Assembly: GCA_944390315.1 (NCBI GenBank)
Contig: CALXPO010000022.1
Location: forward strand, 1-64,000
DNA length: 64,000 bases
DNA from: an uncultured Alphaproteobacteria bacterium
Lineage (GTDB): Bacteria > Pseudomonadota > Alphaproteobacteria > RF32 > CAG-239
Direction of reading: 5' to 3'
Positions 30,848-37,879 of the stretch are shown here, piece by piece (within the stretch, counting starts at the first letter, position 1; each line of letters begins with the position of its first letter). The notes beneath the pieces were generated by a model, which was not told the origin of the DNA, made no database searches, and saw only the letters and a program-made list of their open reading frames with translations. The translations under genes were made by a program, and so were the position numbers.

Positions 30848-30901
30848 TTTCTTAATATAATCCTCGCAGTTTTAAATTAATTTATGTTGGACCGACTAAT
30901 T

Positions 30902-31645
30902 ATGTCAAAGTACACTTTTAAATCTTGCTTTGCAACAGATTTTGAACATATTGCGCCAAAAAATAATGCACCGACGATTTTATATCTGCATGGTTTTTGT
31001 TCGGATTGCTGGGGAAAGAAGCCTGAAACGGTCAAATGCTTTTGTTTGGAGCATGGTGTGGGGTTGTTTCGTTTTGATTATGCGGGACACGGGTCGGATA
31101 GAGAAAATTTGGATAAAGCCGATTTCGAAATTTGGAAAAGTCAGGTTTTAGAAGTCATTGACGAAGCCATAACGGGAGATGTGGTCTGTGTCGGCTCTTC
31201 CATGGGCGGCTGGCTGTCACTGATTGCGGCAATAGCGCGTCCCGAGCGTGTTAAAGGTGTGGTAGGCTTGGCGGCGGCGCCGAATTTTGTGAAAAGATTT
31301 GCCTCAATGGTCACGGCCGAACAAAAAGCCGATTTGGCGCAAAAAGGTCAGTTTAGTTTTGGTAATAAAGATTTTACTTATACGATTACCCAAAGATTTA
31401 TAGATACGGCTTTTCAGAATTGTTTGCCCGAAAACGAAAAATCGTGGCCGATAGATTGTCCGGTGCATTTTATTCAAGGAATGCAGGATGCCAGTCTGCC
31501 ATGGCAATGTGCTTTGGATTTTGTGCGGGCCGTCCGCTCCGAAAATGTTGAGCTGAAATTGCTCAAAGCCTCCAATCACCGCCTAAATGATGATGATGCA
31601 CAGACAGAATTGCTTAATTCTTTGGCAAAGGTTGTGAATATCTGA
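30902..31645 (+). CDS. Alpha/beta hydrolase (serine hydrolase)
   Basis: About 247 residues. The catalytic triad is visible: nucleophile Ser in VGSSMGGW (GxSxG, near residue 97), acid Asp in IQGMQDASLP, and His in ASNHRLND. The oxyanion-hole strand is LYLHGFCSD. The closest look is to short-chain carboxylesterases or palmitoyl-thioesterase-like hydrolases (ABHD10-type). The in-frame ATG at 30884 is an alternative start; neither has a strong Shine-Dalgarno. It precedes the FliF-FliG fusion gene by about 72 bases, which may or may not share its promoter. Confidence 0.82.
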   Translation: MSKYTFKSCFATDFEHIAPKNNAPTILYLHGFCSDCWGKKPETVKCFCLEHGVGLFRFDYAGHGSDRENLDKADFEIWKSQVLEVIDEAITGDVVCVGSSMGGWLSLIAAIARPERVKGVVGLAAAPNFVKRFASMVTAEQKADLAQKGQFSFGNKDFTYTITQRFIDTAFQNCLPENEKSWPIDCPVHFIQGMQDASLPWQCALDFVRAVRSENVELKLLKASNHRLNDDDAQTELLNSLAKVVNI

Positions 31646-31717
31646 AAAAATTGCTTTTTATAATAAGTGAAAAAAGACTACTCTAAAATAAAAAATGATG
31701 TAAATCAGGTGAGAAAA

Positions 31718-33088
31718 GTGAAACAGCAAAAAAAACATTATTCATGTGCTCAAGGTTTGGCCGCTGCCGCGGTCAGTTTTGCTCTGGGTTTGGCGGTCAT
31801 CTTGTTTGCGGCGGCCGCGTTAACTGACCGGCGACCGACAATCAATGTATATGAAACTTCGGAAAGCCGAGACGGCGCGCGTCGTGCCGAAGAGATATTT
31901 TTGGCCAAACGCATTGTGAATGTGTTGGAACCTTTAGTCGGCAAAAATAAAGTAAAAGCCGAAGTTTCACTCGATGTCGATTATGATACCGTTGCCACCA
32001 GCGAAGAAATGTATGATCCAAACGGACAGGTCTTGCGTTCGTATAAAGCGGCACAAAATTTTGCCAGCGAGGGCGAATATGCCCTTAACAAATATAATCG
32101 ACTGATTGTCCAAAACGGCGGACAAATTAAACAAATGTCGGTTCTGGTTTTGATTGAAGGAGTTAAAAAAGGTGATGAATATTTTGCTCATTCTTCAAAC
32201 GAACTCAATGCTTATGCCGCTTTAATCACACCGGTTATCGGTTTTGTTGCCGAACGCGGCGACAGATTGCAAATCGAAAATTATCGTCCGCAAAATTCAT
32301 CTTCTTTTGTTTCGGCTAACTGGGGCTGTTTGCTCGGTATTATCATAATTTTGATTTTACTGTGGTTGATTAACAAAAAACCGCAAGAAAAAACACCAAA
32401 CAAAAAAAATCAACTGCCTTTATGGGATAAATTGGAACAGTCGGATGGTAAGAGCCTTGCCGAGTTTTTACGGAATGAAAATCCTGCAATAACGGCTTAT
32501 GTCCTCGGAAAACTCAGTCCCGATACGGCTTCATCCGTGCTCAATGCACTGCCGATGGCAACAGCCGTTGATGTTCTGTTGGCCATGAGCGAAAATGCGC
32601 CGATAACACGAGAAGTTGCAAAAGCCATAGAGCAATCTTTGACAAACTCATTGTTTCAAGAAAAAAAACGTGAACGTCAAAGTGTTTATAAACTCTTTTC
32701 TTTGATGAATTTGACTAAACAAAAACAAATGCTGGAAGTCTTGGAAAAACAGAATTCACCTTTGGCTGATAAATTACGTGAACTGATGTTTAATTTTGAA
32801 GATTTTGTGAATGTCTCTGACAAAGATATCAGACGTCTGTTCGATGATGTTGAAGCCGAAAGATTAGCCGTAGCCTTGCGCGGTGCTTCCGAAAAATTAA
32901 AACAACATCTTTTTGCCAATATGTCTTCGGCAGCGGCGGAATATGTTCAAAAACAGATGAATGAAATGGGACCTGTACGTCTGATTGAAGTTGAAAAAGC
33001 TCAGGCAGAAATTATCTGTTTGGCACAATCTTTGGCATCCCGCGGAAAAATAAGTCTGGACGATACAAAGAGCGGAGGTCGACATTAA
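31718..33088 (+). CDS. Natural FliF-FliG fusion protein (MS-ring RBM3 domain joined to FliG middle and C domains)
   Basis: About 456 residues from the GTG at 31718, which follows AGGTGAG; a GTG at 31667 is in frame but has no such site. Membrane segment 1 is at about 13-36. Residues about 57-190 match the FliF RBM3 domain, including AEVSLDVDYDT, EEMYDPNGQVLRS and VGFVAERGDRLQIEN. Membrane segment 2 is at 203-219. After a short basic linker, residues about 245-355 match FliG middle domain (AEFLRNENPAITAYVLGKL) and 356-447 the FliG C domain (MFNFEDFVNVSDKDIRRLF, ALRGASEKLKQHLFANMS, MGPVRLIEVE). RBM1, RBM2 and FliG N are absent. Normal FliF is about 550 and FliG about 330 residues. It is the first gene of the cluster reaching to 36412. 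Confidence 0.88.
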   Translation: MKQQKKHYSCAQGLAAAAVSFALGLAVILFAAAALTDRRPTINVYETSESRDGARRAEEIFLAKRIVNVLEPLVGKNKVKAEVSLDVDYDTVATSEEMYDPNGQVLRSYKAAQNFASEGEYALNKYNRLIVQNGGQIKQMSVLVLIEGVKKGDEYFAHSSNELNAYAALITPVIGFVAERGDRLQIENYRPQNSSSFVSANWGCLLGIIIILILLWLINKKPQEKTPNKKNQLPLWDKLEQSDGKSLAEFLRNENPAITAYVLGKLSPDTASSVLNALPMATAVDVLLAMSENAPITREVAKAIEQSLTNSLFQEKKRERQSVYKLFSLMNLTKQKQMLEVLEKQNSPLADKLRELMFNFEDFVNVSDKDIRRLFDDVEAERLAVALRGASEKLKQHLFANMSSAAAEYVQKQMNEMGPVRLIEVEKAQAEIICLAQSLASRGKISLDDTKSGGRH

Positions 33089-33507
33089 TGGTCCAAAAAG
33101 AGATTGAGTCCAATAATATAAAAATTACGGATGAAAATGCTCCCGCCGTTTTAGATTTGTCAATTAATCGTCCTTTTGTTCCAAAATTTGAACCCGATGA
33201 GCAAAATAATCAACAATTACTCAGTCGCATACAAGAGCTTTTGCAACAAACTAAAAAAGAAGCTAAGGATAAACAGAACAGATTTGAAAATTTTCCGCTT
33301 GATATGACAGTAGAATTCGGTCAAATTGAGATAAACAATAGTGATTTGAAAAACATAGAAAACGGCATTGATACAAAAGTTAAGCACAATATCGGCGATA
33401 ATGTCAATATTTGCTTAAACGGTCATCTTGCTGCTAAGGGAAAGCTCATGTCAAAAGATGGCAAACTTGGCGTATTGTTGACCCAGATAGTAAAAATCGA
33501 GGAGTAA
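33088..33507 (+). CDS. fliN: FliN-like flagellar switch protein (SpoA domain)
   Basis: A 139-residue protein. Residues about 60-137 fit the FliN/SpoA domain: FPLDMTVEFGQIEI, then a hydrophobic strand and NVNICLNGHLAAKGKLMSKD and LGVLLTQIVKI, parallel to the FliN pattern of PVQLTVELG...ILVNGxLIAxGEVV...GVRITDI. In flagella FliN forms the lower C-ring and binds export components. The N-terminal 55 residues are polar and unlike a standard FliN. Its ATG overlaps the stop of the FliF-FliG gene (TAATG), so both are coupled. No fliM is present nearby, which is unusual because FliM normally bridges FliG and FliN. Confidence 0.8.
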   Translation: MVQKEIESNNIKITDENAPAVLDLSINRPFVPKFEPDEQNNQQLLSRIQELLQQTKKEAKDKQNRFENFPLDMTVEFGQIEINNSDLKNIENGIDTKVKHNIGDNVNICLNGHLAAKGKLMSKDGKLGVLLTQIVKIEE

Positions 33508-33509
33508 AA

Positions 33510-34457
33510 ATGCGAATAAAAAAATTCGTCGATAACGATATGATACGTTTAATGCACCGTGTTAAAGAAGAGTTGGGAGACGAAGCGGTTATTGTATCTA
33601 CATCACAAACGGCTGACGGACGCAGTGAATTGGTTGCGGCTGTTGAAACGGATGATGTTGAATTTTCGGATAAGGACGAACCACAAATTTATGCGGCTTC
33701 ATATAGCGATGCCGTCATTCGCGAACGTCTTGATTTTCACGAAACAGGAGCTTTGGCACAGGCAAAATTACTGTCTTTATGTCGCCGCAAAGCTATTGAG
33801 GCAAATCTGAAAGATGATGCCGAAATTTTAACGTCTGTTTTGAGTGATTTGTTTACCACGTATGACATTTTGGATAAAATTCACCCCATAAAAGTTTTTG
33901 TCGGTTTACAAGGAAGCGGAAAAACGACAGCCTTGGTTAAAACGGCGGCTTTAGCTCATTTTAAGGGTCTGTCTGCGGCTATTGTCAGTATGGATACGGT
34001 TAGAGCCGGAGCCAATGCGCAATTACGAGCTTTTGCAGGGATTCTGGGCGTGGAGTTTAATCCGCTGACACATGCTAAAGAATTGCTGCAAACGATTCGA
34101 CAGGCGAGCGCAACAAATGATTTGGTGCTGGTTGATACTCCCGGATTAAATCCGTTTTCAGCAGATGACAATGAGCGTCTTAAAGAGCTTGTTGCAGAGT
34201 CAGGCGGAGAAACCATATTAACACTTGATGCCGGATATAATGCTTATGATGCAGGAGAAACCGGATTTTTGTTTGCGCAAGCCGGTGCAACATGTTTGCT
34301 TCCGACAAAATTAGATTTATGCCGAAGAATGGGCGGGTTGCTGTCAGCAGCGGTAGAAGGAGGTTTTCGTTTGGGCTGGGCATCGGTCAGTTCCAATATA
34401 ACTAATGGGTTAACATCTTTGGATATGCCGTCATTGGCGCGGGCTCTGTTGGCTTAG
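33510..34457 (+). CDS. flhF: FlhF-like SRP-family GTPase
   Basis: A 315-residue protein, shorter than most FlhF (about 380-480). The N-terminal B-like domain begins MRIKKFVDNDMIRLMHRVKEEL and ends with an acidic linker. The GTPase core has P-loop VGLQGSGKTTALVK, VSMDTVRAGANAQLRAFA (SRP-type insertion region), DTPG and TKLD specificity motif. FlhF places the first flagellar components, notably FliF, at the pole in polarly flagellated bacteria. GAGGAG precedes the ATG, three bases after fliN. Finding FlhF beside a FliF-FliG fusion supports a polar or membrane-targeted ring. Confidence 0.88.
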   Translation: MRIKKFVDNDMIRLMHRVKEELGDEAVIVSTSQTADGRSELVAAVETDDVEFSDKDEPQIYAASYSDAVIRERLDFHETGALAQAKLLSLCRRKAIEANLKDDAEILTSVLSDLFTTYDILDKIHPIKVFVGLQGSGKTTALVKTAALAHFKGLSAAIVSMDTVRAGANAQLRAFAGILGVEFNPLTHAKELLQTIRQASATNDLVLVDTPGLNPFSADDNERLKELVAESGGETILTLDAGYNAYDAGETGFLFAQAGATCLLPTKLDLCRRMGGLLSAAVEGGFRLGWASVSSNITNGLTSLDMPSLARALLA

Positions 34458-34467
34458 GGGAGTTATG

Positions 34468-35268
34468 ATGGAGCAGTATATCAGAACAGATTTCAAAGAT
34501 TTACGCTTACAACAAGCTAACCGAATGATTGCAATTGCCTCAGGCAAAGGCGGAGTCGGTAAAACGTGGTTTTCCATCACGTTAGCACATGCTTTGAGCG
34601 CGATGAAACAAAAAACACTGTTGTTTGACGGCGATTTGGGAATGGCCAATATTGATGTGCAATTAGGACTGATGGTGCCTTTTGATTTAGGAAATGTTGT
34701 TACCGGTGCCACAACGCTCAATCAGGTTGTCCATTATTGCGACAAGTGCAGATTTGATGTTATTGCCGGACGTTCCGGTTCGGGCGGATTGGCTTCAATG
34801 CCGATAGGGCGGTTACAAATTTTGGCAGAAGATTTAGCATTGCTTTCGGGATCGTATGATAAAGTCATTTTAGATATGGGAGCAGGGGTCGAAAAATCGA
34901 TTCGTATTTTATCAGGTATGTCCGGACGTGTGATTGTCGTATGTACCGATGAACCAACGGCCCTAACGGACGCTTATGCTTTTATCAAATTAATGAATAT
35001 GCAATATCCCAAATGCCGCTTGGAAGTCGTTGTTAATCAGGCCGAGAGCTTGCGTGAAGGTAAGCAGACATTTGACATTTTGCAAAAAGCATGTCAAACC
35101 TTTTTAAAAATATCGCCGCCGTTGCTGGGAATTGTACGCCGAGATGCTCGTGTTCGTGATGCCATTCGCAGCCAGATGCCGCTAATCAGCCGTTACCCGA
35201 CTTGCGAAGCCGCGGAAGATGTGATTGAAATAGCTCAAAAGATTTTGCAGGATGAAAAAAATGTATAA
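34468..35268 (+). CDS. flhG: FlhG/MinD-like ATPase
   Basis: About 266 residues. The deviant Walker A motif ASGKGGVGKTW, LLFDGDLGMANIDVQLGL (Walker B region with conserved aspartates) and the C-terminal domain with VVVNQAES identify the ParA/MinD superfamily, FlhG branch. FlhG stimulates FlhF GTPase and limits flagellar number. A clear DQAxxLR activation helix is not evident at the N-terminus, though an LQQANRM segment lies there. The C-terminal amphipathic membrane helix typical of MinD is replaced by ...EIAQKILQDEKNV. GGGGAG lies five bases before the second ATG (34468), preferred over 34465. Confidence 0.87.
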   Translation: MEQYIRTDFKDLRLQQANRMIAIASGKGGVGKTWFSITLAHALSAMKQKTLLFDGDLGMANIDVQLGLMVPFDLGNVVTGATTLNQVVHYCDKCRFDVIAGRSGSGGLASMPIGRLQILAEDLALLSGSYDKVILDMGAGVEKSIRILSGMSGRVIVVCTDEPTALTDAYAFIKLMNMQYPKCRLEVVVNQAESLREGKQTFDILQKACQTFLKISPPLLGIVRRDARVRDAIRSQMPLISRYPTCEAAEDVIEIAQKILQDEKNV

Positions 35269-36412
35269 TCAAGATCCTTTAGAATATTATCAAATTTTGG
35301 ATGTTTCGCCCGATGCCGATGCAAAGACCATCAAACTTCATTATCGGGATAAAGCAAAAGAATGGCATCCCGATTATAACAAAGCTGAGGATGCAATAGA
35401 ACATTTTCAAAAACTCTCCGTGGCATATGATATATTGCAAGACGAGAATAAGCGTTTGCGATATGACTTGCTGGCCTGCATTTATGATAAAGATAATTTT
35501 CCTCAGATGGATGCGCTGAGCATTTTGAAAGATAGGATGAACGAAGAAAATCCAGATGTCCGAGCTTTTGACTTACGTTATGTTTTCGGCAAGATTATTA
35601 AATTTTCACATCGTGAAGAGCGTCTTATTTGTACGGAAAAGCAAGCACTTAATGAAATTCTGAAATGTTCTCTGTCTAACTGGCTTTGCGGCTGGTGGGG
35701 AATAAAATCTTTCGCAGTCAATTGTCGGGCTCTGATTGCCAATTATAAACATATCGGTACCAATCGGCAGGACAATTTAACCGTATTATTGCATAATGCT
35801 TTAGCCTATGATGAAGAAAAAAAGGAAAAAAAATCGCTTTACTCTGCAATCTTAGCTTTGGAATATGCTTTGCCCGAGCAACGTCCGTTGATAGAACGTT
35901 TTATTAAAAGGTTAGGCGGAAAAGTTCAAAAGCCGCCGCGTTGGCGTTGGTTTAGGTTAAAAGCCGCTAATTTACTAGTACCGTTTATTCTGTTGATGGT
36001 TATCTTGTCGCCGATTGCAAATTCTGTGTTTGGCGGCCTGCAACAATATGTCAGAAAAGAAAACGAAATTACCTATTTTCAAAAAGTTCAATTTAACAAT
36101 GGCGGTGAAACTTTTGATGATATTGTCGTTTCTAAGATTTTTGATATTCCGGTTGATATTTATGATGACAAGATGCTTTATCACCTCAAAGCCGATACGG
36201 ATGTGATGTATGGTCCGGGAGACAAATTTGATGTTATGGCGAAAGGAGTTGAGGGACAAACGGTTCGTTTAACCGGATTTACGCCGGATAAGAGTTGGTA
36301 TAGGATTATGCTTGATAACGGTGAAATGGGTTTTGTTGAGAAAAACGCTGTTGAACAAGGTATGGGTAAAGCGCCGTCCATCGGGAGCAAAATCGTGGCC
36401 GAAACACGATAA
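35261..36412 (+). CDS. Membrane J-domain protein with C-terminal SH3-like domain
   Basis: About 383 residues. Residues 1-72 are a DnaJ domain with the HPD motif intact (EWHPDYN), so it can stimulate a DnaK-type ATPase. A long helical middle follows. A single membrane segment lies at about 228-246 (LLVPFILLMVILSPIANS). The C-terminal 100 residues are beta-rich and look like a bacterial SH3 domain (VMYGPGDKFDVMAKG, WYRIMLDNGEMGFVEK). By topology the J-domain is cytosolic and the SH3 domain periplasmic. It overlaps flhG by eight bases, so it is coupled to the switch cluster. ATG 35261 follows AGGA; 35252 is an alternative. Confidence 0.83.
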   Translation: MYNQDPLEYYQILDVSPDADAKTIKLHYRDKAKEWHPDYNKAEDAIEHFQKLSVAYDILQDENKRLRYDLLACIYDKDNFPQMDALSILKDRMNEENPDVRAFDLRYVFGKIIKFSHREERLICTEKQALNEILKCSLSNWLCGWWGIKSFAVNCRALIANYKHIGTNRQDNLTVLLHNALAYDEEKKEKKSLYSAILALEYALPEQRPLIERFIKRLGGKVQKPPRWRWFRLKAANLLVPFILLMVILSPIANSVFGGLQQYVRKENEITYFQKVQFNNGGETFDDIVVSKIFDIPVDIYDDKMLYHLKADTDVMYGPGDKFDVMAKGVEGQTVRLTGFTPDKSWYRIMLDNGEMGFVEKNAVEQGMGKAPSIGSKIVAETR

Positions 36413-37716: not shown

Positions 37717-37879
37717 AGGAGAGAGAACCGTCGGGCCGTATATGATACATTCTGTCTCGAACCGCATCTCACTAGGTGGGCACCATATAACAAAACCACG
37801 ATTTTGCCAGAGACAGTTCCCTAAAATATAACGTTGGCTCGGAAGATCTGCGGAATTACGCACCAAACAGTCCTCTCTA
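37717..37879 (-). ncRNA. ssrS: 6S RNA
   Basis: A non-coding stretch of about 163 bases between zapA and ymdB, the usual alphaproteobacterial site of ssrS. On the minus strand the ends AGAGAGGAC and GTTCTCTCT close a terminal stem, and long imperfect complementary arms lead to a central open region, the 6S form that mimics an open promoter and sequesters sigma-70 RNA polymerase. Inner arm features include GATCTTCCGAG and GTGCCCACC. A -10-like TATATT/TATAGT lies just upstream. Ends are approximate. Identification rests on synteny and fold rather than a covariance search. Confidence 0.72.

Follow-up and report, generated by a model that had tools for sequence, protein, structure and literature searches.

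A natural FliF-FliG fusion in an apparently undescribed, export-less remnant of the flagellar base in uncultured Alphaproteobacteria

The stretch of DNA analyzed here, hereafter the window, comprises 64,000 nucleotides of contig CALXPO010000022.1 from an uncultured alphaproteobacterium (assembly GCA_944390315.1; this genome is labelled G000, and other genomes G001, G002 and so on). Its forward strand carries a gene in which parts of two proteins of the flagellar base, FliF and FliG, are encoded as one chain. An earlier note, made from the sequence alone, had described this gene as a natural FliF-FliG fusion, and the description stands. A single open frame of 473 codons (31667-33088, +) runs without internal stops, its product matches the Pfam families YscJ_FliF_C (3.2e-19), FliG_M (1.1e-14) and FliG_C (2.9e-35), all above the curated cut-offs, and the same fusion is present in three other species. 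The start proposed in that note, a GTG at 31718 lying behind AGGTGAG, is also more likely than the GTG at 31667. Along the chain, a first transmembrane helix (TM1) is followed by a FliF RBM3 domain devoid of its beta-collar, a second transmembrane helix (TM2) and the middle and C-terminal domains of FliG (FliG_M and FliG_C, jointly FliG_MC):

31667..33088, forward strand: FliF-FliG fusion protein, 473 amino acids from GTG 31667 or, likelier, 456 from GTG 31718
31757..31813, forward strand: TM1, residues 31-49 by hydropathy (helix 27-54 in the model)
31868..32284, forward strand: FliF RBM3-type domain, residues 68-206 (Pfam, alignment, AlphaFold2, Foldseek)
32315..32371, forward strand: TM2, residues 217-235 (hydropathy and model)
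32450..32656, forward strand: FliG middle domain, with the EYPQ (EHPQ-type) motif degenerate to ENPA (Pfam and alignment)
32741..33058, forward strand: FliG C domain without the torque charges, MSSA..QKQ standing in place of MSSR..KED (Pfam and alignment)

In an AlphaFold2 model based on 26 related rows, after misaligned FliF TM2 rows had been trimmed, the helices and strands of RBM3 and the FliG domains mostly exceed a predicted local distance difference test (pLDDT) score of 90. Foldseek searches with this model return FliG-MC and the FliF RBM3/S-ring fold, a profile comparison places an engineered FliF-FliG fusion of Vibrio (8z4d) nearest among PDB chains, and no viral relatives were found in the search. 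Aligned with the FliF of flagellated relatives, the fusion lacks RBM1, RBM2 and the beta-collar loop of about 40 residues; aligned with their FliG, it lacks the N domain, and FliG_N is below the Pfam cut-off. The earlier note had rightly pointed to the loss of RBM1, RBM2 and FliG_N, and had overlooked that of the beta-collar. The FliG_C charges common to flagellated kin (MSxR...[KR]ED) are replaced throughout the fusion clade (MSSA/MSTA/MPPA...QKQ/KKE/KKK) and in part in a sister clade; we take the role of these positions in torque generation to be established by work in Salmonella.

Two circumstances that had been named beforehand as able to refute the fusion do not hold. A sequencing error or frameshift is ruled out because the fusion is found in the assemblies of other species, complete in G010 and G009 and running to a contig end in G004. 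A complete, conventional fliF or fliG elsewhere in G000 is likewise ruled out, as the search gave one match only. In surveys of the class (385 genomes, 221 with FliG matches, listed to about E 1e-33) and of the phylum (150 genomes, 120 with matches), only G000 had a frame of fusion length among the matches listed, the others not exceeding 397 amino acids; a 904-amino-acid frame at the FliG of G027 was resolved into ordinary separate genes. A scan of GTDB contigs for the fusion yielded those three sister species and no others, all of them metagenome-assembled genomes of uncultured Alphaproteobacteria. No description of a natural FliF-FliG fusion was found in the open-access literature, and its occurrence in an export-less setting appears to be undescribed; every component belongs to a known family.

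The fusion gene is followed on the same strand by four further genes:

33088..33507, forward strand: N-terminal segment of FliH fused to FliN (FliMN_C 1.9e-9 at 33280-33492; alignment)
33510..34457, forward strand: FlhF, GTPase of the signal recognition particle (SRP) type (PF00448 1.5e-21), with the N-terminal FliG-interacting region of about 44 residues kept (33510-33641)
34465..35268, forward strand: FlhG, MinD-type ATPase, deviant Walker A intact (SGKGGVGKTW)
35252..36412, forward strand: membrane protein with a J-domain (HPD present), a helical middle, one transmembrane helix and a C-terminal SH3-like part

The earlier note had identified FlhF, FlhG and the J-domain/SH3 protein correctly, and had taken the first of these frames for FliN, overlooking that it is a FliH-FliN fusion. 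The frame begins with PAVLDLSINR and continues into a coiled stretch. In relatives, the motif F.FDNF...PVLDLSINR opens a separate FliH-like gene, and the FliH of flagellated kin opens with FxFDNF. This shared start motif indicates that the N-terminus of FliH has been joined to FliN in the fusion clade; Pfam does not recognize the remnant, which is therefore identified by alignment and position. FlhF also matches TIGR03499 (7.7e-33, under its cut-off), and its N-terminus, which aligns with that of relatives, is predicted to bind FliG. FlhG, 67% identical to the FlhG of flagellated kin, matches TIGR01969 (1.4e-30) and TIGR01968 (2.9e-24), in both cases below the cut-offs. A DQAxxLR activator motif is not evident in it, which is uninformative because the FlhG of flagellated kin has no evident motif either. 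Neither fold nor sequence comparison with the PDB gave a clear match for the helical middle of the J-protein, in contrast to its J and SH3 parts.

The same gene order, which the earlier note had suggested seeking in related genomes, was found across the genus. Twelve of its 13 members carry an orthologous locus, G001 being the one without it, in two forms that are each monophyletic and whose switch genes contain no stops. The RBM3 fusion is carried by G000, G009, G010 and G004 (cut by the contig end). The sister form, which had escaped the earlier note, consists of two transmembrane helices and FliG_MC without RBM3, and is found in G002, G003 (cut at its start), G005, G006, G007, G008, G011 and G012, three of the eight having been confirmed in Pfam. 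In a tree built from genes of the locus and its neighbourhood, the two forms are sister clades. In the sister clade, FliH measures about 167 amino acids in G003 and G011, 79 in G005 and about 60 in G002, G008 and G012, a longer form being also read in G007. Loss of FlhF is confined, within the genus, to the clade formed by G002, G008 and G012. In flagellated genera of the family the parent operon reads fliF-fliG-fliH-fliN-NtrC-flhA-flhF-flhG-fliK-dnaJ, and the genus has therefore kept a subset of it in the original order. Of 101 family genomes, 97 encode the C-terminal part of the J-protein, and flhG adjoins its gene at those non-flagellated loci that were read. All switch genes have been lost in the non-flagellated genera g3, g4, g5, g6 and g14, as well as in G024 (g13), so that the flhG-dnaJ pair stands alone, a state that the earlier note had not considered.

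This lone pair was read at loci L061-L066, L068-L074 and L077-L080 (G014, G015, G016, G017, G024, G025 and others) and was present in every genus without flagella that was examined in the family, the Walker A of FlhG being altered as a rule. Genus g13 presents a recent flagellar loss that lends itself to comparison, G061 (L076) keeping the flagellar operon and G024 (L065) only flhG-dnaJ. In G005 the same locus lies on contigs C75 (L040) and C102 (L041) with identical match scores, probably through assembly redundancy. Two further features of the window flank the locus:

30884..31645, forward strand: alpha/beta hydrolase, co-directional, adjoining the locus in most genus members and possibly the first gene of the operon
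37721..37876, reverse strand: 6S RNA (Rfam RF00013, 69 bits)

Gene absences, as assessed by family searches, extend well beyond the locus. The earlier note had seen neither fliM nor genes for an export gate or a stator in the window, and this holds at the genome level: FlhA is found in none of the 13 genus genomes, FliM in none of the nine tested (it is present in the flagellated G018 and G022), and FliP, present in 50 of 101 family genomes, in none of the 11 listed for the genus. An injectisome-type export gate is equally missing, no FHIPEP-family match having been obtained in the genus with PF00771, which covers SctV. No MotA-type stator was found; each genus genome tested has one MotA_ExbB-family match, as do non-flagellated kin, flagellated kin having two or three. 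Because it is a single copy, as in non-flagellated kin, this protein is most simply TolQ or ExbB, as inferred from copy number. Rod, hook and filament genes are absent from the locus, no genome-wide search having been made for them. With export gate, FliM and stators lost, any filament would be lost as well. The suggestion of a simplified flagellar base, understood as a flagellum, is not supported, since the genus has no export gate and the torque charges of FliG are gone.

The locus is nonetheless under robust purifying selection. Ratios of nonsynonymous to synonymous substitution (dN/dS), computed with our own script after Nei-Gojobori on close pairs and approximate because of high synonymous divergence, are 0.08-0.10 for membrane-FliG, 0.04-0.11 for FliN, 0.11 for FliH, 0.05 for FlhF, 0.03-0.09 for FlhG and 0.07-0.10 for DnaJ, set beside 0.02-0.03 for ThrS; the values of 0.03-0.11 indicate a functional locus and not a relic. 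For the fusion itself, comparison of G000 with the other fusion species yields 0.23-0.35, synonymous sites being nearly saturated. No other member of the locus is as well conserved as FlhG. Its identity to flagellated kin, normalized by DnaJ and compared without correction for the shared ancestry of non-independent species, is 1.50-1.54 where switch genes and FlhF are present, 1.30-1.39 where switch genes occur without FlhF, and 0.72-1.23 where neither is present. The deviant Walker A lysine is lost in all genomes without switch genes and FlhF, except G024. FlhG thus seems to be conserved only where switch genes and FlhF stay and relaxed in genera with flhG-dnaJ only, and the order of these values suggests that at the present locus FlhG still acts together with FlhF and what is left of the rotor.

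In sum, the locus encodes a membrane-anchored FliG, with or without RBM3, together with FliN, an N-terminal segment of FliH, usually FlhF, FlhG and a membrane J-protein. We read it as a flagellar base that has been stripped of export gate, FliM and stators and kept for another task (a rough probability of 60%), and the remnant is now probably a positioning platform. In such a platform, the fusion would insert through its two transmembrane helices and may oligomerize via RBM3 and FliG_MC, the union of FliF and FliG in one chain making FliG_N docking needless. FlhF would capture the membrane platform and stage FlhG at the pole, while FliN and the FliH-derived peptide would recruit or regulate FlhG, a MinD-like ATPase that would act on a partner at the platform; through the J-protein, FlhG may be connected with DnaK and the envelope. 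By analogy with Campylobacter jejuni, FlhG might protect the poles from division or organize polarity, although we regard this specific output as doubtful and as the weakest part of the proposal. Of the uses that the earlier note envisaged, a membrane ring for polarity fits best, the polarity output being what we only infer. FlhF and FlhG are switches that ordinarily position flagella at a cell pole. The parts kept match the FlhF-FliG capture module of polar flagellates, and the parts lost would mostly be unneeded by it, FliM being the exception.

Several observations weigh against this proposal. FlhF has been lost in three species, the fusion clade has a degenerate FliM-binding motif, and the separate reductions of RBM3, FliH and FlhF imply that the platform is shrinking. 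The scaffold also changes faster than FlhG (identities of G000 to G009 and G010 are 45-47% for the fusion and 78-82% for FlhG), and shared ancestry bears on the FlhG comparison. Of five genus members tested, four (G009, G010, G011 and G012) encode a true MipZ, the lack of a match in G000 being possibly an assembly gap, so that FlhG is probably not the only division-placing ATPase and the idea of it as the sole one is weakened. PopZ, weak or present in genus relatives and without a match in G000, is uninformative. On the other side, MinC_C is absent from 11 of 11 genomes, in keeping with a C. jejuni-type system. True MipZ was also not found in G014, G015 and G025, the relatives' MipZ scoring at E ~1e-80.

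The stepwise losses, the reduction of other non-flagellated genera to flhG-dnaJ and the lack of the whole locus in G001 could also befit a decaying relic of a recent flagellar loss, its genes being passengers beside flhG en route to the flhG-dnaJ state. This reading is improbable and strongly disfavored by dN/dS values of 0.04-0.11 for membrane-FliG, FliN and FliH at high synonymous divergence, by switch genes that are free of stops and RBM3 and FliG domains that are predicted to fold well, and by the span of one form or the other across the genus. FlhG might instead, tuned by FlhF and the FliG/FliN remnant, control transcription in the manner of FleN/FleQ and not cell geometry. FlhG does control FlrA/FleQ in polar flagellates (PMC12826062), and its conservation exceeds that of the rest of the locus, but the locus lacks the NtrC-type regulator that the parent operon has, and the retention of a two-helix FliG goes unexplained, which makes this account unlikely.

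The pairing of an SRP-type GTPase with a J-domain membrane protein in one operon also invites a role in membrane-protein targeting or quality control, with FlhF, FlhG and the J-protein inserting or assembling another envelope complex on a FliF-FliG scaffold. The near-ubiquity of the J-protein in the family and its adjacency to flhG fit such a role; the absence of FlhF from three genus members and from genera with only flhG-dnaJ does not, and we deem it as improbable as decay. A reduced rotary motor powered by a stator of the TolQ/ExbB type is disfavored and most improbable of all. FliG_C is kept and each genome tested has one MotA_ExbB-family protein, but it is a single copy, as in all non-flagellated kin, the torque charges are lost and there is no export gate for building a rod.

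Taken to its full extent, the proposal of a flagellum-derived, export-less membrane ring (fused FliF-FliG, FliH-FliN, FlhF, FlhG and the J-protein) that organizes poles or division in non-motile bacteria is tentative, with odds slightly short of even; if true, it would constitute a third fate of the flagellum, apart from motility and injectisomes. The genus and its kin provide a natural, species-by-species series of flagellum dismantling in which selection maintains the FlhF/FlhG-rotor module. It can thereby be tested directly whether the base of the rotor serves polarity or division in its own right, independently of motility, a question entangled with the flagellum in C. jejuni, and the natural minimal parts can show how much of FliF, FliG, FliH and FliN, domain by domain, is enough for FlhF and FlhG.

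One close counterpart is the MS-ring/C-ring of polar flagellates with FlhF and FlhG, with which the locus shares homologous parts, the ancestral gene order and the RBM3 and FliG_MC folds. It differs in that FliF and FliG are fused, and in the loss of RBM1/RBM2, beta-collar, FliG_N, FliM, export gate and torque charges. In polar flagellates, FlhG acts on FlhF and FliM/FliN (PMC12826062). In Shewanella putrefaciens, the first 44 residues of FlhF bind FliG, mainly its MC domains, and the FlhF NG domain binds a polar landmark (PMC11236974); the FlhF N-terminal region and FliG_MC of this FlhF-FliG-HubP polar capture are the pair retained here, where no flagellum results. Laboratory FliF-FliG fusions of Salmonella and Vibrio likewise form one chain and can assemble into rings, with 34/35-mers in Vibrio (PMC11481574; PDB 8z4d; PMC6079021). 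Those are engineered at full length, whereas the present fusion is natural and has dispensed with RBM1/2, beta-collar and FliG_N. In C. jejuni, FliF, FliG, FliM and FliN are required for FlhG-dependent control of the division site; the MS/C-ring proteins affect FlhG localization and, with FlhG, keep division off the poles, export genes being largely dispensable (PMC3228812, PMC6946799). FlhG, FlhF, FliF, FliG and FliN are the players in both cases and MinC is absent here too, but C. jejuni has an intact flagellum, whereas here there is none, FliM has been lost and MipZ is encoded by most of the relatives tested.

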